The notes under the pieces were generated by a model, which was given only the letters and a program-made list of their open reading frames with translations, was not told where the DNA came from and did not search any database. Both the position numbers and the translations under genes were made by a program. From a virus: a stretch of 38,103 bases of DNA. Location of the stretch: positions 1 through 38,103 of IMG/VR virus record IMGVR_UViG_3300045996_003893; one strand, written 5' to 3'. Numbering within the stretch: the first letter of the stretch is position 1; each line of letters opens with the position of its first letter. Below are positions 4,106 through 35,052 of the stretch, piece by piece.

Positions 4106-4687
4106 ATGCTGCGGACGCACGTCCTCGCCGCGTACGAGGAGGCTCTCGCGCGCGGCGAGTCGCTGTCGATCGACCAGCAGCGGCAGCTCGCGGCCGAGGT
4201 GCGCCGCCTGCTGGAGCGCGGCGGCGCGGCCGACTTGCCGCCGCGGGTGGAGCCGGTGCCCGAGCCGCGCGCCTCGCGCGTGGCCGTCACCGCCGAGCCG
4301 AGGGGGCGCAGCGCCGGCGGGCCCGAGGTGGAGCGCATCCGTGAGGCGCTGGCGGTGGCCGTCGATCGCGACGGACTGCGGCCGACGGCGCGCGAGGTGG
4401 CGGCGAGGGCGGCCGGGAGGATCACGCCGACTGGCCTGCAGAAGTTCCTCGACGGCGGCCAGCCGTACTCGCGGACGCTGATGGCCTACCGGATCTGGTA
4501 CGTCCACCAGGTCCAGGGCGGGCGCATCCCGCTGGATGAGGAGGCGCAGCGCGTCGCGTTGGCCGTCCTCCTCGCCGACTTCGGTCCGCTGGAGCGGCAG
4601 CTGCTGGTGGAGCGGGTGAAGCGGCAGTACCGAGAGCGGGGACAGGCGCCGCCGCGGTGGCTCGCGGACGAGGATGAAACCTCTTGA
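4106..4687 (+). CDS. HTH-like protein with PTGL-KFLDG signature, 193 aa
   Basis: Residues 92-134 contain an HTH-like block, TAREVAARAAGRITPTGLQKFLDG, followed by PYS-T and R-WY. A second protein in this window (32409-32669) carries the same block. Residues 1-40 are helical, and a Pro/Arg-rich linker (41-70) joins the halves. The C-terminus is helical and basic. No strong ribosome site is seen at 4106; the gene follows the 59-aa ORF by 13 nt. Its stop codon overlaps the -35 box of the promoter at 4684. It is likely a DNA-binding regulator, possibly of that promoter. Confidence 0.6.
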   Translation: MLRTHVLAAYEEALARGESLSIDQQRQLAAEVRRLLERGGAADLPPRVEPVPEPRASRVAVTAEPRGRSAGGPEVERIREALAVAVDRDGLRPTAREVAARAAGRITPTGLQKFLDGGQPYSRTLMAYRIWYVHQVQGGRIPLDEEAQRVALAVLLADFGPLERQLLVERVKRQYRERGQAPPRWLADEDETS

Positions 4688-4711
4688 CATTATAGTCCAT
4701 TGGATTATAAT
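4684..4711 (+). promoter_or_regulatory. consensus sigma70-type promoter TTGACA-N16-TATAAT
   Basis: TTGACA at 4684-4689 and TATAAT at 4706-4711 match both consensus hexamers perfectly, with a 16-bp spacer, in a stretch strikingly AT-rich for this genome. It reads into the gene starting at 4757, leaving a leader of about 40 nt. The operator at 4689-4711 covers the spacer and the -10 box. Confidence 0.85.
4689..4711. promoter_or_regulatory. 23-bp operator-like palindrome over the promoter
   Basis: Near-perfect inverted repeat with half-site ATTATAgTCCA and partner TGGAtTATAAT, meeting at 4700. It overlaps the -10 box and nearly the whole spacer, so a dimeric repressor bound here would exclude RNA polymerase. 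No second copy was noticed in the window. Confidence 0.7.
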
Positions 4712-4756: not shown

Positions 4757-5257
4757 ATGACCGCCACGTCGACCACGGACACCTACGATGCGACCCTCGC
4801 CGAGGCGACGGCGCTGCTGATCGCCCGCCTCGGGCGCGCCGGGGGCGAGTGGCCCGAGGGGGAGATGGTCAAGGCGGCGAGCGACGCCCTGGGCAACGTG
4901 TGGTACGACGGCATCTCCGTCCCGGCGTGGGTGAACGCGGCCGACGCGATCCTGCAGGGACAGGCGACCGGCCCCACGGCGACTGCCCAGCAGCTCGTGG
5001 AGGCGCGCGAGATCGCGGACGCGCAGGGGACGACCGTGTGCATCGTGGAGGGCGACGGCACCGTGTTCGTGTGGGGTCGCGCCCTGGATCGTCTCAGCCC
5101 CCGGGCGCTCGTGCTGGCCACGGTGGAGCCGACGGCCTGGCGGGAGCGCCGGGAGCGCGAGGCGGCGGAGAGGATGGCTGCGGACGCCGCCGCCCAGGCG
5201 GAGTCGGACGCGCAGTGGTACGGCGCGATCGACACCCGCGCCGCGGAGCGGGAGTGA
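4757..5257 (+). CDS. hypothetical protein, 166 aa
   Basis: The ATG at 4757 (MTATSTTDTYD) has a GGAG site 9 nt upstream and lies just below the consensus promoter; an ATG at 4700 lies inside the promoter and is rejected. Residues about 10-65 are helical, about 80-125 are strand-like (TTVCIVEGDGTVFVWGRALD), and the end is an Arg/Glu/Ala-rich helix that may form a coiled coil. It overlaps the next gene by 4 nt (GTGA). The strong, apparently repressible promoter suggests the product is needed quickly or must be kept tightly off. The family is not recognised. Confidence 0.65.
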   Translation: MTATSTTDTYDATLAEATALLIARLGRAGGEWPEGEMVKAASDALGNVWYDGISVPAWVNAADAILQGQATGPTATAQQLVEAREIADAQGTTVCIVEGDGTVFVWGRALDRLSPRALVLATVEPTAWRERREREAAERMAADAAAQAESDAQWYGAIDTRAAERE

Positions 5258-5874: not shown

Positions 5875-5916
5875 GTGAAGCGCCCCGGCATCCTTGCGGA
5901 TGCCGGGGCGCTTCAC
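5875..5916. terminator. 19-bp perfect hairpin between converging gene blocks
   Basis: GTGAAGCGCCCCGGCATCC (5875-5893), loop TTGC, then its exact complement (5898-5916). It sits between rightward genes ending at 5796 and leftward genes ending at 6065, as expected of a bidirectional terminator, although no clear T-tract follows on either strand. The remaining gap up to 6064 holds only a short hexamer repeat. Confidence 0.65.
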
Positions 5917-6000
5917 CTTGCCCACCCCTCAATCGCGGTAGGAGATTCGGACACGATCTCAGAACCCGCACCGCCGCGCCGTCCACCGATCCCCCCCAAC

Positions 6001-6030
6001 CACCGCCACCGCCACCGCCACCGCCACCGC
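6001..6030. repeat. (CACCGC)5 hexamer repeat
   Basis: Five exact tandem copies of CACCGC in the non-coding gap downstream of the endolysin gene. This is a simple slippage-type repeat. Confidence 0.9.
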
Positions 6031-7704: not shown

Positions 7705-8772
7705 TCAGGTGTCGATGAGCCCCAGCGTGCGGAGCGCGGCGAGGATCGCGTTGACCTTCGTGGCGATCTGCGCGGACGTGGCGGACCCGTCGGTGGCCAG
7801 GTCCGCGAGCGCTGCGGGTTGCGTCGCGGCGGCGACACCGAAGAAGCCGGCGTGCGTGCCCTGATGCTGGAGCTGCGCGTTGAACAGGACGTCCCCGTCG
7901 AAGAGCCCGCCGAGCGCCTCGAACTGATCGAGGAAGGTGGCCGTCCCCCCGAACGTCGCTGCGCCGGTCGTCTCCAGCGCGTGCGTCGTCAGCACGCCGG
8001 CAACGGCCCAGAGGAAGGCGCCGAGCGCCGACGCCGTCGGCGCCGCGGCGGCGTTGTCGATGTAGACGACCTCGTCGCCGCCCGTGTCCGGGGGGGTCGC
8101 GGCGAAGAAGCTGGCGATGCGCCGGTTGGTCGTCACCAGGCGCAGCAGCGCAAGCATCTCCTGCGCGCCGAGCGTCACGCGGACGGACTCCGTTCCCGTC
8201 GTGGTCCCGCGCGCGAGCGAGACGAGAAGCCCGGGGACGTTCGTCCCGTTCAGCTGCGCGACGCCGGGGTCCGTCGCGTGGCCCTCGCTGCGGAGCCGGA
8301 CCTCGAAGGACCGCGTCCCGCCGACCGCGTTGGGGTCGCTGATGAGCTGGACGCCAGCCGTCGCCGCGGACCCGCTGGTGATGTTGCTCACCTGCAGATG
8401 GGTCGTCGCGTTCTGGTTCACGCTCAGCGCCTGGTTCGCGCCGAAGACGTTGGCGACGCTCTTCCGCGCGTAGCCGGCGGCGGTGGCGTGCGGGTCGGCT
8501 GCGGCCGCGTGCACTGCCAGGGCGGCCGCCGCCGTCGCCTCGGCCGCCGCCTGGGCGGCCGTGGCCTTCGCCTGCGCCCCGGACGTGGACTCCACGGCCG
8601 CCGGCGCCACGACCCCGTGCACCCCCGCGGTCGCCGCCGCGTGCGCGTCCACCATCGCCGCGACGGCGCCGCTCACGTCCCCGCTCCCGGCGGTGCCCAC
8701 GATGGGGCGCCCCTCGGCGTCCTCCCCGACGACGTTGGCGACGAACGGCTCGTTGATGGTCCGGGTCGGCAT
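7705..8772 (-). CDS. tail fibre / receptor-binding protein, 355 aa
   Basis: An N-terminal collar-like region is followed by an Ala-rich helical stretch (residues about 40-100, possible trimeric coiled coil), then a beta-rich shaft or knob (about 105-290). The C-terminal segment begins HQGTHAGFFGVAAATQPAAL and ends NAILAALRTLGLIDT, a recurrent C-terminal ending of siphophage fibre proteins. Placement directly after the tail-tip gene, 3 nt away, supports a receptor-binding role on the virion. No hydrolase motif is seen, so binding is probably non-enzymatic. Confidence 0.7.
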   Translation of the reverse strand: MPTRTINEPFVANVVGEDAEGRPIVGTAGSGDVSGAVAAMVDAHAAATAGVHGVVAPAAVESTSGAQAKATAAQAAAEATAAAALAVHAAAADPHATAAGYARKSVANVFGANQALSVNQNATTHLQVSNITSGSAATAGVQLISDPNAVGGTRSFEVRLRSEGHATDPGVAQLNGTNVPGLLVSLARGTTTGTESVRVTLGAQEMLALLRLVTTNRRIASFFAATPPDTGGDEVVYIDNAAAAPTASALGAFLWAVAGVLTTHALETTGAATFGGTATFLDQFEALGGLFDGDVLFNAQLQHQGTHAGFFGVAAATQPAALADLATDGSATSAQIATKVNAILAALRTLGLIDT

Positions 8773-8775
8773 GGC

Positions 8776-11700
8776 TCACACGCTCCCGTTCACGGGCACC
8801 GGCCCGGCGTAGGCCGGCGGCCCCTCCGTCAGCTCGTCGGCGCTGATGTGCCGGAGCTCCACCTCGGCCACGGTGGCCGGCGTGGTGATGGCGTAGGCGC
8901 GGCTCCCGCCGCTCACCCCCGCGGCGAGAACCGTCGTCTGCACCACCCCCCCGTTCGCCTTCCACCTCGCGCGCGTCTTGAGCGCGGCCGTCGGCGTGAA
9001 CGACAGGACCATCGTCTGCGAGCCACCGGCGACGGTGCCCCGCTCCAGCTCGGCCAGGCCGGGGACGGCGGTGATGGGGCCGCCGTCGACGCCGTCCCCC
9101 GGCACCCCGGCCACGACGACGCTCCCCTCCCAGGTGTGCGAGGTGGAGTCCTGCCCCTCGGCCAGGATGACCACGTACCACGTGCCGTTGCTGACGGTGA
9201 CGGCGGGGAGCGCCGGCGTCACGCCGGGCTCCAGCTTCCGCCGGCCGCCGCGGAGAGTGCCGGCGTCGGGCACGCCGCCCGCCGATGGCGCCACGCCGTC
9301 GAGCGTGGGCCACCCCCCCCGCCTCGCGTAGACGCTGATCCACTGCGTGGCACCGGTGAACGCCGCCACCAGCTCGAGCGCCGTCGCGGGGGGCGTGTGG
9401 GCGGCCGAGCCGCTGAGCACCCACGGGCGGGAGAGGGGGCGGGTGTCCTCCTGGACGACGCGCACCGTCTCCCCCTCCGTCCCCGCCACCGCCGCCCCGG
9501 TCCACGCCGACCACGCGGAGACGTCGGCCGTCAGCATGTAGCTGGCGGGGAGGGGGGTGCCGAGCGTCGCCGTCCCCGCGGCCGCGGCGAACTCCTCGAC
9601 CTCCGAGAGCACCGGGACCGCGCCGGGATCGTCGACGCCGAAGTCGACGCGGATGCCGGCCGCGAAGGCATTGGGCGTCCACGTGAGCGTGAGGGTGCCG
9701 TCGTCGCCCACGACGACGTCCACGTCCTTCACGCGCGGCGTGTCGGGGGTGGCGGTGCTGGGGGCCACGGACCACTCCGAGGGGCGGTAGCCGCTGCGCT
9801 CGCTCCGGTACCGGATCCACACGTCGGCGCCGGCGGGCAACTGCGGGGTGACGACGTCGGCGCCTGCGGCGGCGCGGCCGGCGTACGTCCAGAGGCCGGA
9901 GCCGGCGGCGGGCTCCGACGCGGAGACGGCGTAGTCGACGCGCGCCGCGGCGTCGGTCGGCGTGGTGGCGATCGGCACCGTCACGGCTCCGGCGGCGTCC
10001 GTGGTGATGGCGCCGATGGTCGGGGGGAGGAGCGGTGTGTTGACGGCGCCGGCGTCGAGGAGATCGACGCTCCACCAATGGAAGTCGAGCGGCGTCCGGC
10101 GCACCACCTGGGCGAGCCGGAACGTCCCCCGCGTGCGGTCGCGATAGTCGGGGAGGCGGCCGATGGCCACCTCGAACCAGTCGCCCACGCGGAGGTGCGC
10201 GTGCGCGCTGCGGAGCACCTCGAGGTCGGTGATTCGCTGGCCGCCGTAGAGCAGGCGGTCCAGGGCCTGCGCGCGCCGGAGCTGCGCCACCTGGTGTCCG
10301 ACCTCGTCGCGGATGTCGCCCGTCAGCGACTGCCCCTCCGCGCCGCCGATGGCGCGGAGGGAGATGGTCTTCAGCTCCCACAGCCGGAGGTTGAGCACGT
10401 CGATGGACGCGTCGACACCGGCCTCGATGCTCACGTCGCGCGAGGCCATCCCGTCCCCGGCGGAGCGCTCGCCGAGCGGGTCGCGCTCGGCGCCGACGAA
10501 GTAGTCCCGCTGGTAGATGACGCGGACGTAGTTGACCGCGTCGGAGGAGGGGTGCGCCCAGCGGCCTCCGCGGGTGTTGTCGTCGTTCAGCTCGCCGAGG
10601 ACGGCGTCCGCATCCGGCACCTCGTACCGCACGGGGCTGATGCGGCCGGCGTCGTCGAGCGCGGGCGCGGAGCCGGTGGCCACGTCCAGCCGCTCGAGGA
10701 ATTCGCGCGCGTCCTTCACCGGCTCCGTCACCCGGAGGCGGCACGGCGTCTCGTCCGCGAGGAGCGCCGCCTCGTCGTAGCGGATGCGCGGCGCGTACGG
10801 CACCACCTGGCCGGCGGCGTTCTGGCGGGTCGCGAAGTCGCCGCGGTAGACGTTGCGCCGGAACTCGCCGTGCGTCCCCTCCCACAGGAACGGCCAGTCC
10901 TTCGACGCCGCGCCGACCCACACGAGGAGCACCTCCACCGACGCGCCGTGCACCGGCGTCGGTGTGCCGATGAGCCAGCCCCACAGGAGGGCGACGACGT
11001 AGTTGACCTCGAGCTCCGGGCCCGTCGCCGGCCGGAACTTCCCCCTGGCGGTGTGAAAGAGGACGCCACTCGGCGTGAAGTCGGGGGCGATGACCGTCGT
11101 ATTCCACTCCGTCTCGCCCACATTCCGCCACCACAGCTCGACGTTGTTGACGACGAGCAGGGTGTCGCCCACGCCGAAGTTGTCGCGCTGCCCCAGCTGC
11201 AGGGCCGCCCGCATCTTGTCGGTGACGATGAGGTGCGCGGGGACGCGCGAGCGGTCTGCCGGCGCGGACGGAGCGAACGCCCCCAACTGGAAGCCGCGAG
11301 AGCGGTAGACGCCCGCGACAGGCGCCGCGGCCGGGACGAGGTACGAGCCGTCCGCGCGGCGGCCGTACGGCACGACGGGGCCCCGCGGCCAGACGGCGGT
11401 GGTACCCGTGCGGTCGAAGAGCCGCATCTGCCGGACGACCTCGTTGGTGTCGCGCGGGTCGAAGCCGAAGGAGACGCCGTCGGCCAGCAGCTCCGGCCCA
11501 CCGATGACGCCGTCGTGCAGGGTGCGCCGCGTGGTGCCGTCCGTCTCCTCGACGAGCATCCGGCGGCCGTTGACCGCGCTCTCCCCCGCGAGGGTGGCGA
11601 GATGGTAGGTGACGAGGCCGGAGTCCTGATCGGCGGCGATGCGGCGCCGGTCCAGCAGCTCCACGCGCATCTGCCCGATGCTGGCGCGCCCCTGCTGGAA

Positions 11701-12474
11701 GTCGACGGCCTGCTCCGCGAACGCCCGCGGCATGGCGAGGTAGGGACGGGGGTGGTCCGGGGCGGTGCTGAACGACGCCTCCGTCACCGCGCCGTCCTCG
11801 TCGACGGCGCCCAGGACGGGCGTCTCCCCGTCGTCGCCGAAGAGCGTGACCTCGACGGCGTACCGCGGCGGCACGACGGTCGGCGCCGTCTCCCCCGCGG
11901 TCGAGATCCCGACGACGTCCACGTCGAAGTGCAGCCCGCCGCCGCCGGTCTCCGCGTACACGCCGGCGAACCCCGCCGGCCGCGCGCCGCCGACGTAGGC
12001 GCCGGAGAGCCCCGGCGTCCACGCCCCCGGCTCGTCCTCCGGGCCGCCCGTCCACACGCGGCCGAGCAGCGTCGCCGCGTCAGGGCGCAGCCGGATCCAG
12101 TACCACACCCCTGCGCCGACGCCGACGGCCACGGACGCGAGCTGGGTCTCGCCGTGGAACAGCCTCGCCGTCCCGTCGCTGGCGCGGAGCTCGAGGCGGA
12201 GCACGCCGCCCACGATGATCCCGGCCCACACGACGGCCGCCTCGACGATCCGCACGCGGGCGACGAGCTCGATGGTGTCCCCGCTGCCGACCTCCGACCA
12301 GAACATCCCGCACCGGGCGGTCGAGAGGGTGCGGGTGTAGCGCATCCGGCGCCGCCCCGTCGCCGCCTCGTCGGCCTCGACGAGCCAGGTGCCGGCGGTG
12401 GCCGTCAGCCCGGGCGTCCACCCCGGGGGCGGGTCGCCGGCGGCGACGGCGCGGAAGTCGGTGACGTCGATCAT
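8776..12474 (-). CDS. tail-tip / central fibre protein (baseplate hub-like), 1232 aa
   Basis: The largest gene, translated from the ATG at 12474 that overlaps the previous stop by 1 nt. Residues about 1-190 form a LamG/concanavalin-like beta-sandwich (WYWIRLRPDAATLLGRVWTG), a possible glycan binder. The middle, about 190-820, resembles hub or tail-associated proteins (RLFDRTGTTAVW, DRDDSRGTFRL-type strands). About 830-1232 is a series of fibronectin-like or Ig-like beta modules (PTIGAITTDAAGAVTVPIAT; LTLTWTPNAFAAGIRVDFG). Length and position after the tape measure fit a TipJ/gpJ-like protein that closes the tail and contacts the host. The exact domain limits are inferred. Confidence 0.7.
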   Translation of the reverse strand: MIDVTDFRAVAAGDPPPGWTPGLTATAGTWLVEADEAATGRRRMRYTRTLSTARCGMFWSEVGSGDTIELVARVRIVEAAVVWAGIIVGGVLRLELRASDGTARLFHGETQLASVAVGVGAGVWYWIRLRPDAATLLGRVWTGGPEDEPGAWTPGLSGAYVGGARPAGFAGVYAETGGGGLHFDVDVVGISTAGETAPTVVPPRYAVEVTLFGDDGETPVLGAVDEDGAVTEASFSTAPDHPRPYLAMPRAFAEQAVDFQQGRASIGQMRVELLDRRRIAADQDSGLVTYHLATLAGESAVNGRRMLVEETDGTTRRTLHDGVIGGPELLADGVSFGFDPRDTNEVVRQMRLFDRTGTTAVWPRGPVVPYGRRADGSYLVPAAAPVAGVYRSRGFQLGAFAPSAPADRSRVPAHLIVTDKMRAALQLGQRDNFGVGDTLLVVNNVELWWRNVGETEWNTTVIAPDFTPSGVLFHTARGKFRPATGPELEVNYVVALLWGWLIGTPTPVHGASVEVLLVWVGAASKDWPFLWEGTHGEFRRNVYRGDFATRQNAAGQVVPYAPRIRYDEAALLADETPCRLRVTEPVKDAREFLERLDVATGSAPALDDAGRISPVRYEVPDADAVLGELNDDNTRGGRWAHPSSDAVNYVRVIYQRDYFVGAERDPLGERSAGDGMASRDVSIEAGVDASIDVLNLRLWELKTISLRAIGGAEGQSLTGDIRDEVGHQVAQLRRAQALDRLLYGGQRITDLEVLRSAHAHLRVGDWFEVAIGRLPDYRDRTRGTFRLAQVVRRTPLDFHWWSVDLLDAGAVNTPLLPPTIGAITTDAAGAVTVPIATTPTDAAARVDYAVSASEPAAGSGLWTYAGRAAAGADVVTPQLPAGADVWIRYRSERSGYRPSEWSVAPSTATPDTPRVKDVDVVVGDDGTLTLTWTPNAFAAGIRVDFGVDDPGAVPVLSEVEEFAAAAGTATLGTPLPASYMLTADVSAWSAWTGAAVAGTEGETVRVVQEDTRPLSRPWVLSGSAAHTPPATALELVAAFTGATQWISVYARRGGWPTLDGVAPSAGGVPDAGTLRGGRRKLEPGVTPALPAVTVSNGTWYVVILAEGQDSTSHTWEGSVVVAGVPGDGVDGGPITAVPGLAELERGTVAGGSQTMVLSFTPTAALKTRARWKANGGVVQTTVLAAGVSGGSRAYAITTPATVAEVELRHISADELTEGPPAYAGPVPVNGSV

Positions 12475-12887
12475 CAGACGTAGACCTCCACCCACGCGGA
12501 GCCGTCCACCTTGGAGACGGTGAGCGTGTACTCGAGCAGGCCGAGCGTCTCTCCGCGCGAGGGGTTGAGCTCGTCCTCCGGTGTCGGCGCCTCGAGGTAG
12601 ACGCTGTACGGCGTGCCGTTCCCCAGGTCGACGGTGAACGCGGTCCCCGGCGCGTCCTGGGCGGAGGCGATCGCGGCCTCGAAGGCGACGGCCTCGCTCT
12701 CCCACACGCGCACGCGGAGGACGAGCTTCCGGTCGCGTCGGTCGACGCGGCCCTCGCGGGCGCCGGACGTGACCTTGCGGAACCCGCCCTCCGTCGCGCC
12801 GCGGCGGTCCCACGGCGCCATCGGCACCGTCGCCGTCCACGTGGTGCCCGACGGCGGGGTGATCGACACGAGCCAGGGCAGCGTCAT
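12474..12887 (-). CDS. distal tail-like structural protein, 137 aa
   Basis: A compact protein beginning MTLPWLVSITPPSGTTWTAT with alternating strands and an internal helix (ESEAVAFEAAIASAQDAPGT). It overlaps the preceding small gene by 4 nt and the tail-tip gene by 1 nt. In siphophages the slot between tape measure and tail tip holds distal tail and tail-tip assembly proteins, so this role is likely. Sequence alone does not place it in a named family. Confidence 0.55.
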   Translation of the reverse strand: MTLPWLVSITPPSGTTWTATVPMAPWDRRGATEGGFRKVTSGAREGRVDRRDRKLVLRVRVWESEAVAFEAAIASAQDAPGTAFTVDLGNGTPYSVYLEAPTPEDELNPSRGETLGLLEYTLTVSKVDGSAWVEVYV

Positions 12888-13042
12888 GCGACGGGGCCCA
12901 GGGACGAGATGACGCGGAGACGCGCGCCGCGCAGCGTGAGGCCGAGGGCGTACCCGAGCCAGCGCTCCGACGCGGCGAGGTGGAGCGCCGCGGCCCTCGC
13001 GTGGTCCGCGGCGGTGGGGCCGGTGGGGGGCTGCGGGTGCAT
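12884..13042 (-). CDS. small hypothetical protein, 52 aa, first gene of the tail-tip module
   Basis: A short ORF (MHPQPPTGPTAADHARAAAL and onward, ending VISSLGPVA). The ATG at 13042 has a strong CGGAGG ribosome site 5 nt upstream, and its stop overlaps the next start as ATGA. This coupling and the good ribosome site support it despite its size. It is helical and moderately basic. It sits just below the leader element at 13062-13124, so it is the first translated product of that transcript. Confidence 0.6.
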   Translation of the reverse strand: MHPQPPTGPTAADHARAAALHLAASERWLGYALGLTLRGARLRVISSLGPVA

Positions 13043-13061: not shown

Positions 13062-13124
13062 ACGAAAGAAGCCCCGCCCCGCCTATGGTGGCGGGGAGGG
13101 GCCTTGCGGCTGATGGCGACTTCT
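13062..13124 (-). promoter_or_regulatory. leader/terminator element, copy A
   Basis: On the minus strand a conserved run beginning AGAAGTCGCCATCAGCCGCA is followed by a hairpin (13071-13083 pairing with 13090-13102) and TTCTTTCG. The block 13085-13124 matches 23991-24030 at 38 of 40 positions. It lies 20 nt upstream of the first tail-tip gene and starts just below the promoter at 13132-13160, so it would be the 5' end of that mRNA. Confidence 0.65.
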
Positions 13125-13131
13125 GAGCTAC

Positions 13132-13160
13132 AGTCTACCGGCGCAGGCGCCGCGAATCAA
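13132..13160 (-). promoter_or_regulatory. leftward promoter candidate TTGATT-N17-TAGACT
   Basis: TTGATT at 13160-13155 and TAGACT at 13137-13132 on the minus strand, with a 17-bp spacer. The expected start is near 13125, exactly at the conserved edge of leader copy A, which supports it. It points to the tail-tip module. Confidence 0.45.
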
Positions 13161-13254: not shown

Positions 13255-13743
13255 ATGCGTCGCCTGCTCCTCGCCCTGCCGCTGCTGCTGGCCGCGTGCG
13301 CCAGCGTTCCCGCGATCCCCCAGGCGGACCGTCAACCCATGGCGCCCGTCGAGGTAGCCGCCGCCGGAACCCGCGCTGAAGTGTTCCGCCGCGTGGTCGC
13401 GGCGTTCACCGCCGAGGGACTCACCGTCGAGCACGCTTCTGCCGACGGCGGGTTGGTTACGTCCGCGACTCTCGCTGGCGACATCGTGACCCACGCGTCC
13501 GGGCTGGCGGGCGGTCTGTTTCCTCAGGTCTGGCGGACGCACACCCGCTACCGCGCCGTAGTGCTGGGGGATGATGGGGCCGTTCGGGTTCAGGTCACCG
13601 CCACCAGCGCTGTGGAGGACGTTCAGAAGCAGACGATGTCGCCTGAAGCGGCGACGCCGGAGGCATGTGCGCGTGATCCGAAGTGCGTCGAGGCGATCAT
13701 CTCCCGCATGCACCGGATCGCGGCCCGCATTCCGGGCCGCTGA
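13255..13743 (+). CDS. opposite-strand lipoprotein (moron), 162 aa
   Basis: Signal peptide MRRLLLALPLLLAAC with lipobox LAAC, cysteine 15 being lipidated. The mature domain of about 148 residues alternates strands and helices (RAEVFRRVVAAFTAEGLTVE; TRYRAVVLGDDGAVRVQVTA), and later carries a Cys pair within CARDPKC. The ATG at 13255 has a GGAG site 8 nt upstream. It is the only rightward gene within the late block and is convergent with the tape measure (4 nt between stops). That layout is classic for a moron expressed from the prophage to change the host envelope, for example superinfection exclusion. The fold looks like small envelope lipoproteins; the function is inferred. Confidence 0.75.
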   Translation: MRRLLLALPLLLAACASVPAIPQADRQPMAPVEVAAAGTRAEVFRRVVAAFTAEGLTVEHASADGGLVTSATLAGDIVTHASGLAGGLFPQVWRTHTRYRAVVLGDDGAVRVQVTATSAVEDVQKQTMSPEAATPEACARDPKCVEAIISRMHRIAARIPGR

Positions 13744-13747
13744 GGAG

Positions 13748-15778
13748 CTACGAACCCGGACGCATCCACGGGGGTGTTCCCCGCAGCTGAACGTCCAGGT
13801 TGATACCGTCGCCGATCCCGCGTGCTTGGACAGGGTCGTTCGGGTTGAACGGCTGCACGAACACTTGGACGTTCATCTCCGGCGGAGGCACCTGCGCGGC
13901 GATCCCGACTCCTGCATCGCGTGGCGCTGGAAACCCGCCCCCGCTCCCTCCCCCGCCACCACCGATGCTACCGAGCCCTCCGCTCGCCACGCCGATGAGG
14001 GCGCTGTACCCCAGCCACTTTACGGCCGCGGCTTGATGCATCCCGACTGCCGCAAGATACCCGGGGGCCAATGCGGCCGTCAGCGGGTTCGCCGCCGCCG
14101 CTGTGGCTTTTGCCTTGGCTTCGAAAGCGCCGGCGATATTCTCCGCGACCTTGGCCTTGGCGTACTGCGCGAGTGAACTCAGACCCGCCAGCCCAATCGA
14201 CTTGAACATCTCCCCGAGAAAGCCACCGAGCGTCTGGCCTTCTTGGAAGAGCTGAGCAAATGCGCCGCTCCATGCATCGAGGACGCCTGAAGCGGTATCC
14301 TGCACGATGCTGAGCATCGTCGCATGCTGCTCTCGCCAGAGATCGACGAGGTACTGCATCTGCTCGATGGCCGGCACCGGCAACCCGGTGACGGAGTTGG
14401 CGAGCGTGTCGTCGACCTCCCGCTTGGGAAGCGGAGTCGTCTTCCCCTTCTTGCCCTTCGCTCCCGGTGCCGCGGCCGCCGCAGCGGCGCCGTCGCCCCC
14501 CCAGTCGGCAGCGACGGCGGACGCCGCGCCGCGCGAGGCGTTGCTGATGTCCTCGAACGCCTGAGCGTACGCCTGCGCCAGCTCGATCGCGTTGTCGCCG
14601 ATGGAGGAGAAGGCGGCGCTGGCCGCGATCAGGTCGTCCTCCAGCCCCGCGTTGAAGATGGCCGCCTGCCGCTGCATCGCGGAGAAGAGGCCGATGTTCA
14701 CCCCGGGCAGCTTGTTCAGCTCGGTGATGAAGTCGTTGAGCGCACCCTCACCCTTCGCGAGGGCGTTGACGATGCCCCCGACCATCAGCGAAACCATCGC
14801 CTCGATCGAGTGGCCGATGGCCCGCCCCAGGTTGAACAGCATCTTGAACGGCGTCACGAGCGTCGCCACGATGGCCTTCACGCCGGCGATGGTGACGCGG
14901 ACCCAGTAGCCGATCTGCGCCCGGTTCTCGATGAGCTTCCCGGTGAAGCTGTTCACCGAGCTGATCCCACCCTTCATCTCGCCGTTGAACCCCTCCTCCC
15001 CGATGATCCGCGCCAGCGAGGAGAAGTTGTCCCACATGTTCGACAGCAGCCCGTTGGTCGTGGTCATCTGCCCCGCCATCGAGCCCTGCACGCCAGCCAT
15101 CTGACCGATCGACACGAGGTAGGCGGAGATGGCGTCCTGGGTGTTGGCGATCTCCGTCGTCTGGCCCTTGAACGTGAGAGACACGCGGTCGCCGTTCTGC
15201 TTCGCCTTGACGCCGAACTCCTTCAGGCGCTCGAACTCGCCGGTCACGGCGTCCGTCACGGCCTCGGCCAGGTCGGTGATGCTCTTCCCGCGCGAGGACG
15301 CGAGGTCGCCGAACGCGGTCATCTCCGCGGCGGCGGGCTGCAGGCCCGTGCCGCGCAGGATGACGAACGCCTTCGTCAGCTCGGCCACCTCGAACGGAGT
15401 GCGAGAGGCGAACTCGCTGATCGCGGCGAACGCCGCCCGCCCCTTCTCCGCGCTCCCCTCCAGATTGGACAGCTGCGCGACGAGGCTCTCCGTCTCGCGG
15501 TTGACGTCGAAGATGAACTTCCCGACGGCGAGCGCGCTGATCCCGGCGGCCAGCCCCATGATCTTGCTCTTGAGGCTGGCGAAGACGCCCTCCCCCGTCT
15601 TCCCGACGCTGGCCAGGTCCGCGCGCGCGTTCCTCGCGAACCGGTCCATCTCGGCGGTCGGGACGTCCATGTCCGTGGCGCGGCGCAGCGAGGCTTGCGT
15701 CTCCTCCTCCGTGCGCCTGGCCTGGCCGCGGTCGAAGACGAGCTCGATGAACTTCCGGAACCCGCGTCCCTCAGCCAT
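13748..15778 (-). CDS. tape measure protein, 676 aa
   Basis: A long helical protein with a tape-measure N-domain (TPFEVAELTKAFVILRGTGL, TDLAEAVTDAVTGEFERLKE) and hydrophobic segments near residues 290-345 and 590-610. A Lys-rich linker (KGKKGKTT) and a Gly-rich tail region (GGGGGGSGGG) follow. It sets tail length and exits at infection, often making the membrane channel. At about 0.15 nm per residue, 676 residues would give a tail near 100 nm (family rule). It follows the tail chaperone genes, as expected. Confidence 0.9.
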   Translation of the reverse strand: MAEGRGFRKFIELVFDRGQARRTEEETQASLRRATDMDVPTAEMDRFARNARADLASVGKTGEGVFASLKSKIMGLAAGISALAVGKFIFDVNRETESLVAQLSNLEGSAEKGRAAFAAISEFASRTPFEVAELTKAFVILRGTGLQPAAAEMTAFGDLASSRGKSITDLAEAVTDAVTGEFERLKEFGVKAKQNGDRVSLTFKGQTTEIANTQDAISAYLVSIGQMAGVQGSMAGQMTTTNGLLSNMWDNFSSLARIIGEEGFNGEMKGGISSVNSFTGKLIENRAQIGYWVRVTIAGVKAIVATLVTPFKMLFNLGRAIGHSIEAMVSLMVGGIVNALAKGEGALNDFITELNKLPGVNIGLFSAMQRQAAIFNAGLEDDLIAASAAFSSIGDNAIELAQAYAQAFEDISNASRGAASAVAADWGGDGAAAAAAAPGAKGKKGKTTPLPKREVDDTLANSVTGLPVPAIEQMQYLVDLWREQHATMLSIVQDTASGVLDAWSGAFAQLFQEGQTLGGFLGEMFKSIGLAGLSSLAQYAKAKVAENIAGAFEAKAKATAAAANPLTAALAPGYLAAVGMHQAAAVKWLGYSALIGVASGGLGSIGGGGGGSGGGFPAPRDAGVGIAAQVPPPEMNVQVFVQPFNPNDPVQARGIGDGINLDVQLRGTPPWMRPGS

Positions 15779-19481: not shown

Positions 19482-20978
19482 TTACGCCACGCGGGCCTGC
19501 GCCACCACGTACTTGAAGGCGGCCGGCCGCTTCACGCCGAACGCGACGCGCTCCTCGCCGCGGATGGTGCGGCGGTTCTTCGTGAAGTCGTCGTTCTGCC
19601 ACCCCACCTGGACCGTCGCGTCGAGGCGGTCCCACAGCGTGGCGCCGCGGACGAAGTCGCCGACGAGGACGCGGCGCTCGTTGGTGGTGTAGGAGCCGGG
19701 CTCCTGCATAGCCACCGACTCGACCTTCGTCAGGCCCCACACGCGCATGCGGCCGTTGTCGTCGGTGATGACCACCCAGACGTAGTGCGAGTCGGTGCCC
19801 TTCAGGAGGTCGAGGGCCTCGCTCTCGTAGGGGTGGAGGATGACGCCGTTGGGCTCGTTGCCGCTGACGCGGACGTCGGTGATGGAGCGGCGGATCTTGT
19901 CGAGCAGCGTGTCGCCGCCGACGGTTCGCCCGGCGGCCACGCCCGGCGTCTGGAAGATGCCGAGCAGGTTCTGCCCGGTGCCATCCGCCCAGGTCACCTG
20001 GCGCTCCTCGACGAGCTTCAGCTCGTAGCGGAGCTCCGTGTCGATGATCCCCTCGACCTGGGGGATGTCCTGCAGCTGCTGCTCGGTCACGGGGATCCAG
20101 ACCGCCAGCGTCCGGACGGGCGACGTCGCGTCGTCGAGGATGAAGGTGGTCTCCGGCTTCGCGGCGTTCTCGGCCACGGGCGCCGCCGCCGGCGTGGCGG
20201 CCGGCGTGAACGCCAGGTACTCGATGGCGTTGCTGCTCGTCCGGCTGACGTTCAGCAGGTCGCGCATCGTCAGCCGGATCGGCTCGCTGTCGCGCACGAT
20301 CTCCGAGATGCGATCCGGCTGGATGACGCCGGCGCCGATGGTCGGGATGGCCTTCCCCTCCCAGGTCTCCTGCAGCTTCTTCAGACCCTCAGCCGTGAGG
20401 CCGATGAAGCGATCCTCACCGGCCAGCCCCTTCACGCGGAACGGCATCGACCCCCCCTGCGGACGGCCGGCGGCCAGGTAGTTCTTGAACTGCTCCGACG
20501 CCGTGAACGCCTGGCCGAGCGAGATGTAGCCGACGATCGGCGCGGCCTTCGCCGCGGCCGGACCATCGGCCGGCATCGCCGGATCGGGGATCTCGCGGCC
20601 GAACTTCTCGAAGCTCTTGATCTGCTCGTCGCGGTCGAACTCGTCCTGCAGCCCCTTCGCCTCGGCGGCGAGCTCCTCGAACTTCTTCCCCATGTCCTCG
20701 GGCATCGCCTTCCCGCGGTGGTCGTCCTGCAGCTTCTTCAGCTCCTTCAGGATGTCCGCGAGCTTGGCGCCCTTCGCGTTGACGATGCCGGCGCTGCGGA
20801 GCGCCGGGTGCATCCAGCCGAAGACGGTGCGGTCGAGCGCGTCGGCCACGGCGAGGAAGCCGCCGGCGACGACCACGGCGCCGCGGTCGGCGGCCGCGGC
20901 GAGCAGCGGGGGGACGGCGCACAGCAGCGCCAGCACGGCGGCCAGCGCGGCGGCGGTCCAGCGGGTGAGGGTCTTCAT
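19482..20978 (-). CDS. major capsid protein (HK97 fold), 498 aa
   Basis: Residues about 60-115 form a helical, charged delta (scaffold) domain (LKELKKLQDDHRGKAMPEDM), and about 175-498 the HK97 fold, with IVRDSEPIRLTMRDLLNVSR, VEERQVTWADGTGQNLLGIF and NGVILHPYESEALDLL segments typical of the family. Residues 7-47 are unexpectedly hydrophobic (WTAAALAAVLALLCAVPPLL and AVVVAGGFLAVADAL), like a signal peptide or membrane helix ahead of the delta domain. ATG 20978 has an AGGACC site. The adjacent protease probably removes the whole N-terminal part during maturation. A start at the internal Met 56 is possible but has no ribosome site. Confidence 0.85.
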   Translation of the reverse strand: MKTLTRWTAAALAAVLALLCAVPPLLAAAADRGAVVVAGGFLAVADALDRTVFGWMHPALRSAGIVNAKGAKLADILKELKKLQDDHRGKAMPEDMGKKFEELAAEAKGLQDEFDRDEQIKSFEKFGREIPDPAMPADGPAAAKAAPIVGYISLGQAFTASEQFKNYLAAGRPQGGSMPFRVKGLAGEDRFIGLTAEGLKKLQETWEGKAIPTIGAGVIQPDRISEIVRDSEPIRLTMRDLLNVSRTSSNAIEYLAFTPAATPAAAPVAENAAKPETTFILDDATSPVRTLAVWIPVTEQQLQDIPQVEGIIDTELRYELKLVEERQVTWADGTGQNLLGIFQTPGVAAGRTVGGDTLLDKIRRSITDVRVSGNEPNGVILHPYESEALDLLKGTDSHYVWVVITDDNGRMRVWGLTKVESVAMQEPGSYTTNERRVLVGDFVRGATLWDRLDATVQVGWQNDDFTKNRRTIRGEERVAFGVKRPAAFKYVVAQARVA

Positions 20979-21043: not shown

Positions 21044-21832
21044 TCAGCGGAGGGCGGTGGCGAGGCTGCGGAGGGTGAGGTCGCGGAGCATCTCCTCGCG
21101 GGCGATGCTGGCGGCGTCCTCGGGCGCGAGTCCCTTCGGCTCCGGGGCCGGCGCCGGGGGCGCGGCGGGCGGGGCATCGAGGAGTGCGCGAAGCTCGGCC
21201 TTCTGCTCGTCGGTGAGGGCGCCGGCGCGGATGGCGGCCGCCATCTCGCCCAGCCCCTTCGCGGTCGTCGTGTCGATGAGGGCGCCGGTGTTCATCCCCC
21301 AGATGACGAGGGACACCTCGCGGAGCTCCACCTCGTGGAGGTGGCGGATGCGGTCCCAGTAGGAGGAGGTGCCCTCCGGCTGCTCGAACTCGTACCGGAT
21401 GCCCCGGTAGCCGATGGAGAGGCCGGTGATGTACCCGCCCTTCACCCGCCGCCAGCAGGCGTCCGCGTCGGGGTCCGGCGCCTCGCCCTCGTCGGCCTTG
21501 AGGATCTGGAACGTGCACCACAGCCCGTCCTCCCTCTCCTCGGCGGCGAGCATCTTCCCGACGACGCGGCGCACGCTGTCGTAGTTGTGGAGGTCGATGA
21601 GCGGCATCACCTTCGCGCTCGACTTCCAGTGCGCGAGCGTCCGCGCGAACGCCCCGAGGTGGATCACGTCGTTGCCGAGGTCGACCTCCCAGGTGGAAGC
21701 CAAGCCGGAGAACGTCCGCTCCGCGTCGTTGATCGTCTCCGCCTTGATCTCGAACCGGATCGGGCCGGAGCGCTCCGTCTCGCGCGTCTTCGGCGCCGGC
21801 GGCGCGGGCGCGCCGCTCTTGGTCTGGATCAT
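21044..21832 (-). CDS. prohead protease (peptidase S78-like), 262 aa
   Basis: Shows the HK97-type pattern: FSGLASTWEVDLGNDVIHLG, GAFARTLAHWKSS, a LHNYDS stretch where family members carry the catalytic His, then KGGYITGLSIGYRGI holding the likely nucleophile Ser, and LREVSLVIWGMN. It processes the capsid delta domain during maturation. ATG 21832 overlaps the portal stop (ATGA) and has a GAGG site. The C-terminal Pro/Ala-rich tail (about 205-262) is variable in this family. Confidence 0.85.
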   Translation of the reverse strand: MIQTKSGAPAPPAPKTRETERSGPIRFEIKAETINDAERTFSGLASTWEVDLGNDVIHLGAFARTLAHWKSSAKVMPLIDLHNYDSVRRVVGKMLAAEEREDGLWCTFQILKADEGEAPDPDADACWRRVKGGYITGLSIGYRGIRYEFEQPEGTSSYWDRIRHLHEVELREVSLVIWGMNTGALIDTTTAKGLGEMAAAIRAGALTDEQKAELRALLDAPPAAPPAPAPEPKGLAPEDAASIAREEMLRDLTLRSLATALR

Positions 21833-23949
21833 TCCTCGGCCTCCGTCGTCGTGAGCGCGAACGTGCAGGTGCACCGGCAGTTCGGTTCCCCCGGCGCCTG
21901 CCGCCCGTTGCTGAACGCCTCGTCGATCCCCCGCTCCTCCCCGTCGAGCTGACGGTGCGCGTCGCGGGTGCGGGAGTCCTTCGTCGCGAGCCACCGCTTG
22001 CGCACCGTCACCGTGGGCGTCTCGGCCGCGTACGCGCTCAGCCCCGACCGGGCGGCGCCGTTCGTGACCGTGACCGTCTCCGTCCTGGCGATCAGCGTGG
22101 CGCGGGAGCGGGCGAAGGCGCCGGAGCTCTCGATGCGCTTCGTCAGCCGGGCGACGGACTCGCCCGCCTCGACACCGGCCTTCAGGGCGTCGCGGATGGC
22201 GGTGCGTGTCGTATCGGCGATCTCCTTCACCAGCTCGGCGCCGTGCTCCTCGACGTACTCGAGCAGGCCGGGTTGCAGCAGGTCGAACGCGAGGCCCAGC
22301 TCAGAGGCCACGGCCTTCACCGCGCGGCGCCCGGTGCTGGTGACGAGCGGGCCGACCTTCGCGCGCCACGACGCCTCGAGGGCCAGGTCATCGAGCAGGC
22401 GCTGGAGCAGCTCGTCGACGCTCTCGGCCGAGGCGGCCGGGTCGTCGTCCTTCGCGCCGGCGCGCAGCGTCGTGCCGGCGAGCTTCAGCACCGCGGCCTT
22501 GTCGGCGGCCAGCTGGGCCGCCGCCGCCGTCTCCCACGCTCCCTCCTGCGCCTCGGCGAGCGCGTCGAACATCGCCCACCGGCCGGCGTCCGCCTTCGTC
22601 TCCGCCTTCCCCGGCTCCGATGCGGGGTCGGCCGTCGGCTGGCCGGGGCGCTGCTGGAATCGCGCGGCCGCCGCGGCCTGGGCGGCGACGCGCTCGGCGC
22701 GCTGCTCCGGCGTCAGCGGCTCGCGGCCCAGCATGGCGCGGCGCTCGTCGTCGGTGAGAACGTCGGACGCGATCCGGCCGATGCGCGCCTGTCGCTCGGC
22801 GTCCTCCTGGAGGGCGGCGATCTTGGAGTTGTCGAAGGTGATGATCCGCGACGTGTCGGGGTCGACCGGCCGCAGGAGCTGGCGGGTGAGCGCGCGGGTG
22901 TAGCGGCTTTGGATGGGTGCGATGCAGTCCTCCCACCCCATCCGCTTCGCGGTCTGGATGTGCGACCACGGGCTGTTCTCGAGGCCGACGGTCGCGCCGA
23001 TCAGCTCCGGGCGGACGGCGAAGGCCATGCACGTCGTCGCCTCGACCTCGCGCCACAGGTCGCCCATCCGCATCTCGTCGAGCGACAGCCCCATCCGCTG
23101 CCAGGTGGCGCGCTCGATCAGCATGGGCCGGCCGGTGTTCAGCGCGCCGACGTGGTTCGCCTTCAGCTCCGCCCGGGCCCGCTCGAACTGCTCGTCGGTG
23201 AGGGGCGCGTCGCCCTGGGTCGAGAACACGCCCGACGGCATCGCCGCGTTGCGCAGCGCCCAGCGCACGCGATTGCGCAGCTCCGTCCCGATCCGCAGCA
23301 TCGACAGCGCGACCTCCGTGGGGGAGATCGCGCCGTGCCGGTCCTCCGGGTTCGGGTAGCGGAAGAGGACCACGTCCTCCGGACCGAACGTGCGGGAGCC
23401 GCCGTGCAGCGCGACGCGGAACTGCGCGTAGAGCCGGGTCCGCCCCTCCGCGTCGGCGCCGCGGGTGACGGTGAACTCCTGGCGGCTGAACGCGCGCAGC
23501 TCGGCCACCCGGTTCAGCCGGTCCCGCGTCTTCAGCCACAGCGCCATCCCGTCGAGGTCGAGGTAGAGTTGCGTCTCCTCGAGCAGGTCGACCATGTCCT
23601 GATCGGGGTTCGGCTCCTCGAGCAGCGCGCCCAGCGGGTGGCCCTTCACCCACTCCCGGTCGCCGTTCTCGTCCTCCGTCCAGACGTAGAGCGGCGACTC
23701 CACCAGCTTCTGCACGCGGTACCGGATGCACGCGTAGCAGATGACCGCGGCGGCGTACGCGCGCTTCGCCGAGATGACGGCGTCGGCCTCTCCGTCGGCG
23801 TGGGCACCCTCGAGCCAGAACGACGCACCGGGCAGGACGACGAGGCCCTTCCGCTCCATCGAGGACGGAGCGGAGTCGACCTTCGCCGCGGGGGCGGAGG
23901 TGCGGGGGAAGAGGCGGGCGGGTCGTGCGGTCGGCGCGAAGATGCCCAA
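21829..23949 (-). CDS. portal-MuF fusion protein, 706 aa
   Basis: Residues about 1-450 form an HK97-type portal: an MGIF-like start (from a TTG at 23949), YAAAVICYACIRYRVQKLVE, FSRQEFTVTRGADAEG, later RYPNPEDRHGAISPTEVALS, VFRPELIG-type segments. After a charged linker, residues about 590-706 match MuF/SPP1 gp7 head-morphogenesis domains: TLIARTETVTVTNGAARSG, KRWLATKDSRTRDAHRQLDG, PNCRCTCTF. The portal forms the DNA entry ring; MuF domains aid head assembly or ejection. The TTG is chosen because GTG 23988 lies inside a hairpin; Met 23859-type starts would cut the family N-terminus. No ribosome site is clear. Confidence 0.8.
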   Translation of the reverse strand: MGIFAPTARPARLFPRTSAPAAKVDSAPSSMERKGLVVLPGASFWLEGAHADGEADAVISAKRAYAAAVICYACIRYRVQKLVESPLYVWTEDENGDREWVKGHPLGALLEEPNPDQDMVDLLEETQLYLDLDGMALWLKTRDRLNRVAELRAFSRQEFTVTRGADAEGRTRLYAQFRVALHGGSRTFGPEDVVLFRYPNPEDRHGAISPTEVALSMLRIGTELRNRVRWALRNAAMPSGVFSTQGDAPLTDEQFERARAELKANHVGALNTGRPMLIERATWQRMGLSLDEMRMGDLWREVEATTCMAFAVRPELIGATVGLENSPWSHIQTAKRMGWEDCIAPIQSRYTRALTRQLLRPVDPDTSRIITFDNSKIAALQEDAERQARIGRIASDVLTDDERRAMLGREPLTPEQRAERVAAQAAAAARFQQRPGQPTADPASEPGKAETKADAGRWAMFDALAEAQEGAWETAAAAQLAADKAAVLKLAGTTLRAGAKDDDPAASAESVDELLQRLLDDLALEASWRAKVGPLVTSTGRRAVKAVASELGLAFDLLQPGLLEYVEEHGAELVKEIADTTRTAIRDALKAGVEAGESVARLTKRIESSGAFARSRATLIARTETVTVTNGAARSGLSAYAAETPTVTVRKRWLATKDSRTRDAHRQLDGEERGIDEAFSNGRQAPGEPNCRCTCTFALTTTEAEE

Positions 23950-23970
23950 GCGCGGCGGCGGAGAACGCAG

Positions 23971-24030
23971 AAAGGCCCGGCCCCGCACGGATGGTGGCGG
24001 GGTCGGGCCTTGCGGCTGATGGCGACTTCT
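23971..24030 (-). promoter_or_regulatory. leader/terminator element, copy B
   Basis: Matches copy A (13062-13124) at 38 of 40 positions in 23991-24030. The hairpin pairs 23972-23986 with 23997-24011 (15 bp with one G-T) and is followed on the minus strand by TTTCTGCG. It lies 22 nt upstream of the portal start, as copy A lies just upstream of the tail-tip module. Confidence 0.65.
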
Positions 24031-24085
24031 CAGGTGCTACTGGGTGGCGCACCGGACTCGGTATCCGGGGCTCACCTTCAGACCA

Positions 24086-24121
24086 CCGAACGCCCCTCAG
24101 CGTAGGTGAGGAAACGTTCGG
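24086..24121. repeat. two-part inverted repeat between terminase block and portal
   Basis: CCGAACG (24086-24092) and CCTCA (24095-24099) pair with TGAGG (24107-24111) and CGTTCGG (24115-24121) around GCGTAGG. It lies in the 263-nt gap (23950-24212) between the small Zn-ribbon gene and portal. It could be a packaging-initiation site or an mRNA structure. The rest of this gap holds leader copy B and no ORF. Confidence 0.5.
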
Positions 24122-24212
24122 GATCGTCGGCGCGTGTTCCACTCTACACCATGCGCCACCCTCTACAGCGCGGAAGCTACGGCATCACTCGCGCCGGTTC
24201 AAGGGCGACGTG

Positions 24213-24419
24213 TCACGCCGCCGCCTCGACGGCCGCGTGGTAGGCGCGCGCCGTCACGCTGTAGACGAGGCCGCACCGGGTGTGCTGGCACTTCACTGTG
24301 TCGAGCACCGTCTCCGGCGGAAGCGCCGCGACGGCCTCGCGGTGCGCCGCGGTCACGCGCTTCGACGGCCGCCACCCGCACCGCGGGCACTGCGTCGCCA
24401 GGATGTACAGGGCGCTCAC
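24213..24419 (-). CDS. small Zn-ribbon protein (Com-like), 68 aa
   Basis: GTG start at 24419 overlapping the large-terminase stop (GTGA). Contains QCPRCGWRPSKRV and, later, VKCQHTRCGLVY, a CxxC...CxxxxC zinc-ribbon pattern. Such small proteins next to terminase resemble phage Mu Com-type translational activators or terminase accessory factors. It lies between terminase and portal, so a packaging or late-regulation role is possible. Only the zinc-ribbon call is firm. Confidence 0.65.
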   Translation of the reverse strand: MSALYILATQCPRCGWRPSKRVTAAHREAVAALPPETVLDTVKCQHTRCGLVYSVTARAYHAAVEAAA

Positions 24420-25954
24420 GCGAGGCTGCGGAAGCGCGGGCCGCCCGCGGCGCCCCCGGTGTGGCGGTGGATGGCCTGGACGAACGCGTCGTTGAGGTCG
24501 AGGTCGGGCCCGCCGGCGACGAGCGTCTCCGCCCGCACCCGCAGCAGCCCCTGCCGCTCCCCGTGCAGCAGCCGGCGGAGGAGGTTCTTCCGCACCCGCA
24601 CCCGCCCCTCCGCGACGATCGGCTGCACGCCGCTGGCCCGCTTCAGCTTGTCGCCCTCGACCTTCACCTCCGAGACGGTCACGCCGTGCGACCGCAGCGT
24701 CTGGGCGGCGCTCTTTCCGCTCGCCTTCGCCTCGATGTGGTGCGGGCCACGGAGGAGCCGCATCCAGGCCACGAGCTCGGGGAACTCCTTCCACTCCCAG
24801 TCCGCCTCGTCGACGTAGATCGGGAAGGAGTCGCGGATCACCTTCCCCGCCTCGTCGAGGCGATCGGGGCCGCGGAAGCTGCGCACCACGGCCGAGGCGC
24901 TGTTGTGCTCGTCCTTCGTCAGCGCCGTGTCCCAGTCGCGCCCGCCGTCGAACGCGTCCGCCGGGAGCTCGTCGTACACCCCGAACCACTCCTCGCGCCA
25001 GACCGTCCCCTTCGGCACCGCGGGGCGCGCCTGCCGCTGAGCGGCGGTGACGTACGTGCCGGCGCTGCGCTGCATCCGGTCGACGGCGGCACGGTCGAAG
25101 CGGCTCGGCGCGAGGACGGCGCCGAGCGGGCGCGGGTCCTCCTCGACGGTGCACGTGGGGGGGAGGCCGCGGGGGCCGTCCCAGCGGCCGAGGGGCGCGT
25201 CGCTCCGGACCTCGTCGCACACGACCACGTGCCAACCCTCCGGCGCCTCGTCGGTGTCCTCCCCCACCTCGCGGCGGAGGAGGAAGTCGATGGGGTCCAG
25301 CACGCCCAGACGCTGCATCACCACGACGATGGCCGCGCCCGGCTCCTGCCGGGACAGGAACTTCCCCGGCCACCACGTCTCGAACCGCCGTTGGTACGTG
25401 GGGGACTCGCTCTTCACCGGGTCGAGCGGGTCGTCGACGACGCCCAGGTGGAAGCCGCGGCCGAGGAGCGCGCCGCCGGCGCCGTCCGCCCACATGGCCC
25501 CGCCCGCCCGCGTCCGCCAGCGGCGCTTCGCCTTCGTCTCCGGGCGCAGTTCGCCGCCGCTCGCCACGAAGTGGCCGCGGGCCTCCTCGCTGAGCTCCCA
25601 GGCCAGCGCGGCCCCGTAGCTGGCGAGGCCGGCGTGCCGCTCGGGGTGACGCTGCAGGTAGTGCGCGGGGAGGAGCCGGCTGAACAGCTCGGACTTGAAG
25701 TACCGCGGCGGCAGGATGACCAACACCCGCAGCAGCTGGCCGACGACGACGCGCTCGCACACGTCCACCAGGCGGGGGATGTGCTCGTACCGGAGCAGGT
25801 CCGGGTTCCGCTGCTCGACGAACGCGCGGAAGGTGGCGGGGCCCGACGGCGCCCCGCTGGCGCGGCCGCCGAGGGCCGACCCTGCGACGTGGAGCCCCTC
25901 GGCCATCAGGTCGAGGCCGCCGGCGTCCGGATGGCTACCCCAGTCGCAGAGCAT
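24416..25954 (-). CDS. terL: terminase large subunit, 512 aa
   Basis: ATPase domain with Walker A-type LPPRYFKSELFSR (residues about 81-93; the usual Gly before Lys is Phe) and Walker B-type FHLGVVDDPLD. The nuclease domain contains DWDTALTKDEHNSASAVV (RNase H-like acidic site) and ends with LNDAFVQAIHRH. It pumps DNA into the prohead and cuts it. The ATG at 25954 has AGAGGTG and overlaps the small subunit by 20 nt; a Met at 25906 is the alternative. Confidence 0.85.
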   Translation of the reverse strand: MLCDWGSHPDAGGLDLMAEGLHVAGSALGGRASGAPSGPATFRAFVEQRNPDLLRYEHIPRLVDVCERVVVGQLLRVLVILPPRYFKSELFSRLLPAHYLQRHPERHAGLASYGAALAWELSEEARGHFVASGGELRPETKAKRRWRTRAGGAMWADGAGGALLGRGFHLGVVDDPLDPVKSESPTYQRRFETWWPGKFLSRQEPGAAIVVVMQRLGVLDPIDFLLRREVGEDTDEAPEGWHVVVCDEVRSDAPLGRWDGPRGLPPTCTVEEDPRPLGAVLAPSRFDRAAVDRMQRSAGTYVTAAQRQARPAVPKGTVWREEWFGVYDELPADAFDGGRDWDTALTKDEHNSASAVVRSFRGPDRLDEAGKVIRDSFPIYVDEADWEWKEFPELVAWMRLLRGPHHIEAKASGKSAAQTLRSHGVTVSEVKVEGDKLKRASGVQPIVAEGRVRVRKNLLRRLLHGERQGLLRVRAETLVAGGPDLDLNDAFVQAIHRHTGGAAGGPRFRSLA

Positions 25955-34690: not shown

Positions 34691-35052
34691 GCGTCGTCGG
34701 TCGGTTCGGCGTTCGGATCGGGCGCGCCAAGCGGCGCCAGGACGGCGACGATGGCGTGGCGCCAGGGCACCTTCCCCTCGGGCGGCGTCTCCCACCGCAC
34801 CAGGCGGAGGCCCGGGGGGAGGTTCTCCTCGACGCCCTCGCGGTCGATCTCCCAGGGGCGGAGGTGCTCGCGCTGGACGAGCACGCGCTCCGTCCCGTCC
34901 TCCATCACCCGCCAGCCCACCCGGCGCTGGTAGCCGGCGGGCAAGACGAAGCGCGTCCCGGGCTCGCGGCGCGCACGCGCCCGGGTCCGCATCATCGCCC
35001 CCGCCAGCTCGGCCAGGTCGGCGCGCTCGTCCACCTCGGGAGCGGTGGCCAT
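34687..35052 (-). CDS. hypothetical protein, 121 aa
   Basis: MATAPEVDERADLAELAGAM starts a partly helical protein with strands RFVLPAGYQRRVGWRVMEDG and GLRLVRWETPPEGKVPW. It overlaps its neighbours by 1 and 4 nt. No family assigned; it belongs to the recombination block. Confidence 0.6.
   Translation of the reverse strand: MATAPEVDERADLAELAGAMMRTRARARREPGTRFVLPAGYQRRVGWRVMEDGTERVLVQREHLRPWEIDREGVEENLPPGLRLVRWETPPEGKVPWRHAIVAVLAPLGAPDPNAEPTDDA

Follow-up and report, generated by a model that had tools for sequence, protein, structure and literature searches.

The window analysed here is the whole of a 38,103-base virus record (IMGVR_UViG_3300045996_003893; 73% G+C), which encodes an uncultured tailed phage and carries on its minus strand two nearly identical elements, each consisting of a 24-base 5′ tag and a terminator-like hairpin and each lying just ahead of a block of structural genes. 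On sequence grounds, these elements are most likely a duplicated regulatory leader that is real and well placed, while the mechanism is put forward as a proposal. The reading that we favour, to which we give about an even chance, is that both copies are transcribed 5′ leaders of leftward structural operons, gated by read-through of the hairpin, with the tag serving as a factor site. If this is true, the head and tail-tip genes are held behind two near-identical stops, both of which a single factor could release. A few model phages and operons already provide examples of such paired leaders, and an uncultured phage with a new sequence family of them would offer a simple system open to direct tests. 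If it is wrong, the pair is an ordinary duplicated terminator.

From 38 kb down to 6 kb, nearly all genes of the window run leftward. By gene calling and family matches, the early genes occupy the upper part of this leftward block, before the terminase gene (24416-25954, minus strand). A gene for a small zinc-ribbon protein (24213-24419, minus strand; CPRC...CQHTRC, all Pfam matches sub-threshold) sits between the terminase gene and leader 2. The first gene after leader 2 (21829-23949, minus strand) encodes a portal fused to a Mu-F-like head protein (PF04860, 1.9e-46; PF04233, 2.3e-20), the product of which begins with (M)GIFAPTARPARLF; protease, capsid and connector genes follow in leftward order on the same strand, and the tape measure gene lies at 13748-15778 (minus strand). 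A lipoprotein-like gene on the opposite strand (13255-13743, plus strand), whose product has a signal peptide with a LAAC lipobox and no family match, separates leader 1 from the tape measure gene. This gene, an insertion that runs counter to the structural operon, is possibly a moron and has a promoter-like site of its own (TTGCGC-18-TACAAT). The first gene after leader 1 (12884-13042, minus strand, 52 aa) opens a block that continues with 12474-12887, 8776-12474 and 7705-8772 and represents the tail-tip or fibre region, with a holin and an SH3 protein beyond it. Given an integrase-like gene, the phage is probably temperate. Among the early genes, the one at 35052-36086 (minus strand) encodes a conserved protein with a ENTVLKMAKKRAYVDA motif, whose relatives number in the hundreds among viral contigs, whereas deposited phages gave one match and Pfam none.

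The repeat itself is clear-cut. Positions 13085-13124 and 23991-24030 are identical at 38 of 40 bases, exactly as an earlier note on this DNA had claimed, and the second copy falls within the region (23971-24030) where that note had placed it; an ungapped comparison of 64 nt gives 80% identity. The positions given in the note hold, with the correction that both elements are minus-strand features. If the tandem array at 1-255 is set aside, no direct repeat of the window scores higher than this pair (34); the next best, a low-complexity run at 6000-6030, reaches 25, and the maximum among 20 third-order Markov resamples is 21. (The array consists of 15-base repeats at the contig edge, and its minus strand encodes a pentapeptide-repeat-like protein.) There are exactly two copies in the window, where a covariance model recovered only these two, their reverse strands and an unrelated terminator at 5875-5916. 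In a gapped alignment, the similarity runs on past the hairpin to GCGC(A/T)TG at both start codons, which fits a duplicated leader rather than a terminator alone. The spacing from element to start codon is 20 and 22 nt, in agreement with the 20-22 nt previously stated. Of the two first-gene starts proposed, 13042 is an ATG preceded by GGAGG, whereas 23949 is a TTG without a Shine-Dalgarno sequence. A coding explanation of the repeat was rejected: the shared stretch has no minus-strand start codon, and on the plus strand an ATG frame in element 1 crosses the lipoprotein gene in a different frame.

Both elements begin with AGAAGTCGCCATCAGCCGCAAGG, the opening of the 24-base tag AGAAGTCGCCATCAGCCGCAAGGC, which is the same in leader 1 (13101-13124, minus strand) and leader 2 (24007-24030, minus strand) and is predicted to be mostly unpaired, its last bases entering the stem in leader 1. 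The earlier note had argued that a plain terminator would not need conservation outside the stem; the tag is indeed shared, but the argument is weaker than it was made to appear, because there are only two copies and a functionless recent duplication would look conserved as well. The hairpins with their U-rich tails lie at 13062-13102 and 23962-24010 (both minus strand); on a d'Aubenton-Carafa-type terminator score, applied to all hairpins on both strands of the window, they come first and third, with values of 24.6 and 9.8. They are the only positive-scoring leftward hairpins in the 38 kb, and both have the GC-rich stem, U tract and positive score of an intrinsic terminator. The rank-2 hairpin (5880-5911) is on the plus strand and ends rightward genes. 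The larger palindrome around it, at 5875-5916, is perfect, has convergent gene blocks on either side, forms the strongest local fold of the window and is a terminator candidate with a poor minus-strand U tract.

The GC hairpin followed by a U-rich stretch, as described before, is present in both copies as far as the stem is concerned, which is two-part (7 pairs, one mismatch, 6-7 pairs), with z values of −3.2 and −3.7 against dinucleotide shuffles and, in leader 1, an energy of −28.4 kcal/mol; the U-richness of the minus-strand tails (UUCUUUCGUCUC or UUUCUGCGUUCUC) is only moderate. The 3′ arm differs between the copies yet still pairs, leader 2 having G-C in place of C-G and of G-U, although with two sequences this covariation is not significant (241 of 500 shuffles reach the same). 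An alternative fold opening the terminator, i.e., an internal antiterminator, was sought in both leaders, and the best options were more than 20 kcal/mol worse. The tag would thus be unable to undo the hairpin by forcing its 3′ arm open, and an outside factor would be needed.

Promoters were predicted by a weight-matrix scan, in which the weights, like those of the terminator score, are E. coli-derived and possibly not those of the host. Upstream of element 1 lies a predicted sigma70-type promoter (TTGATT-17-TAGACT, 13132-13160, minus strand, 16.5 bits), the third-best site on both strands and the second on the minus strand, whose expected start near 13124 coincides with the first conserved base. 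A random position would have a site as good within 60 nt with P ~0.003, a value that ignores intergenic A+T-richness. The promoter suggested previously at these positions, with its start at the edge of the element, therefore stands as a prediction, whereas element 2 has no counterpart at equal distance in the same scan. Instead, a candidate promoter for leader 2 (TTGAAC-17-TAGCTT, 24174-24202, minus strand, 11.9 bits; start expected near 24166) lies ~140 nt upstream of element 2, with P ~0.017 for a site as good within 160 nt of a random position, intergenic A+T-richness again being ignored. Between hairpin and gene, the best promoter site reaches at most 4.5 bits in both leaders. With promoters upstream and none fitting between hairpin and start codon, the downstream genes must be read through the hairpin. 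The simplest arrangement is promoter, leader, terminator and gene, present twice, as in attenuation or antitermination.

The interval upstream of element 2, as far as the zinc-ribbon gene, contains a strongly folded, multi-branched stretch of ~120 nt (24041-24161, minus strand), closed by a ten-base-pair helix, GGGUGGCGCA/UGCGCCACCC. It ranks second of 950 scanned windows (z −5.8) and gives z −4.27 against shuffles, none of 200 reaching it; Rfam returned no match for it. This stretch may represent a structured RNA or else a small element of the inverted-repeat type; were transcription to start near 24166, leader 2 would open with it.

We infer termination at these hairpins, its regulation and a role of the tag as the recognition site. 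In the mechanism that we propose, RNA polymerase would start at the upstream promoter, transcribe the mostly unpaired 24-nt tag first and then, ~20 nt short of the first start codon, encounter the strong, intrinsic-terminator-like hairpin. There, the majority of early transcripts would end, and the head and tail-tip genes would be made only upon read-through. An outside factor would be required for read-through, and the tag, identical in both leaders, is the natural candidate for its site; the factor may be another RNA or a protein (of phage or host) that acts on the polymerase or on the nascent RNA, and one factor at the tag would permit read-through of both operons together. No N, Q or NusG-like antitermination protein was recognised among the proteins scanned from this contig, which may be incomplete.

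The put RNA of phage HK022 acts in cis on downstream terminators without protein factors. Its two related copies, putL and putR, are ~70-nt sites in leaders that form two stem-loops and serve the early operons, one lying at the transcript start and putR ~270 nt in (PMC9378689). The parallel in layout is striking, as here too one of two related leader copies lies at the transcript start and the other ~136 nt in; unlike put, which was compared by description only, the present elements have one terminator-type hairpin before structural genes. Membership of the put family was rejected, as the two adjacent stem-loops in ~70 nt are absent and the leaders have one strong hairpin behind a mostly unpaired 5′ 20-24 nt. 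The combination of boxA and boxB hairpin of lambda nut is likewise missing, the best boxA match having 3/8 mismatches. Thus, of what the earlier note had proposed, regulated attenuation or antitermination is the best fit to the upstream promoter, the strong hairpin, the conserved unpaired tag and the lack of a downstream promoter, whereas the put/nut-type label finds no support, in view of the single hairpin and the missing boxA, ops and UNCG-loop hairpin.

In the Q-dependent late leader of lambda at pR′, a promoter, a short leader and an early terminator precede the late genes, the same order as found here, although there are two leaders here versus one in lambda and no Q homologue was recognised among the proteins scanned. 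In the LoaP system, two operons of the same organism each have, ahead of their first gene, a near-identical leader element and an intrinsic terminator; the element, dfn, is a distinct hairpin with a UNCG loop to which a NusG paralog binds (PMC12691694). The near-identical leader and terminator ahead of two operons recur in the phage, whereas the UNCG-loop hairpin and a NusG-like protein are not seen; neither leader has a CUNCGG-type loop, and none is folded before the terminator in these short leaders. RfaH ops/JUMPstart is a leader sequence shared by several operons in which transcription otherwise ends early (PMC2871177). The leaders described here are likewise shared among operons, and the ops sequence GGCGGTAGNNTG is missing from them, with 4 and 5 mismatches in its 10 fixed bases. 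The ESAS of Cluster K mycobacteriophages are inverted-repeat elements just upstream of start codons, present in 11-19 copies, whose 13-bp motif, GGGATAGGAGCCC, lies at the translation start (PMC3203893). The present elements resemble them as inverted-repeat elements repeated near start codons within one phage, but have two copies, a terminator-like tail and no GGGATAGGAGCCC-type motif. To judge by these comparisons, the elements work like an attenuated or antiterminated leader, and we assign them to no named family.

The main competitor of the gated-leader reading, distinctly less probable than it, is that the elements are duplicated plain insulating terminators, which would halt leftward transcription from the preceding block where extra genes were inserted (the terminase and zinc-ribbon genes in one case; the tape measure gene plus the lipoprotein gene in antisense in the other), with the structural genes served by leakage or by late over-riding transcription. 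The hairpins do border apparently inserted material, namely the lipoprotein gene (13255-13743) and the zinc-ribbon gene (24213-24419). Contigs L170 and L171 come nearest in the head block (protease and capsid 39-49%), and in L171, the nearest syntenic contig, the terminase and portal genes overlap by 1 nt without a leader. The leader and zinc-ribbon gene are therefore likely an addition in this lineage, although the L171 terminase is of another type, so that the junction is not strictly comparable. Against insulation speak the promoters, which lie upstream of both hairpins with none fitting downstream, and the fact that the copies also share the unpaired tag and the stretch reaching to the start codon. 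A duplication or module-boundary recombination patch of recent origin and no regulatory function seems least probable of all: there are two copies only, both at module borders and with none in any relative, but the similarity starts sharply at the expected +1, the copies are co-placed with promoters and start codons, and the stem is maintained though one arm has changed.

Two further readings, each improbable, assign the RNA another role. The elements might be two copies of a ~60-nt phage small RNA consisting of a promoter, an unpaired 5′ seed that pairs with host or phage messages and a terminator. Element 1 has this classical layout, with its expected +1 at the first conserved base, and an AUG context, GCUGAUGGCGAC, occurs in the complement of the tag; that complement has no further match within the window, though, element 2 lacks a suitably spaced promoter, and a free small RNA would not need the 20-22 nt spacing to the start codons. 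Phage Mu offers the precedent for the other reading, its Com protein opening a hairpin for mom. Here, the hairpin would be no terminator but a 5′ UTR structure for stability or translation control, possibly opened by the neighbouring zinc-ribbon protein. The hairpins do end close to the start codons, and a small zinc-ribbon gene precedes leader 2, but its match to Com (E 0.053) is far under the cut-off, the stem of element 1 leaves the ribosome-binding site and start codon of 13042 uncovered, and the U-rich tail after each stem would serve nothing.

The wider distribution fits neither a generic mobile nor a host repeat, the former having been a concern of the earlier note. A 20-mer scan of ~85,000 prokaryote genomes gave nine chance matches, all without the hairpin; viral contigs (20-, 16- and 17-mers) gave none or chance matches only, and deposited phages and distantly related contigs gave none, with the reservation that such scans need exact 16-20-base words or close similarity, so that a strongly diverged form could escape, and that they may not cover records very near the window. 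In Rfam, the window has no match at the gathering score, and around either copy there is none up to E=5, so that the leaders match no known riboswitch, T-box or other Rfam leader. Portal and terminase peptides retrieved no close relatives. That no relative carries the element, and hence offers no evolutionary conservation, counts against the gated-leader reading. It is tentatively conceivable, at rather long odds, that the pair represents a new phage family of antitermination or attenuation RNA, in which the 24-nt tag and the terminator hairpin jointly gate two structural operons in the phage of a high-GC, little-studied host, and in which the RNA perhaps acts on the polymerase directly.

Among the top repeats of seven related contigs, a comparable intergenic leader repeat was absent except for one 22-nt hairpin, CCCCGGCGAACCGGGGCTTCGT, which occurs twice (19780-19801 and 25190-25211) in the distantly related viral contig G006 and is perhaps a repeated terminator of another phage. 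Within the window, by far the best promoter site lies away from both leaders, at 4684-4711 on the plus strand, where a perfect consensus (TTGACA-16-TATAAT) precedes the gene at 4757-5257.
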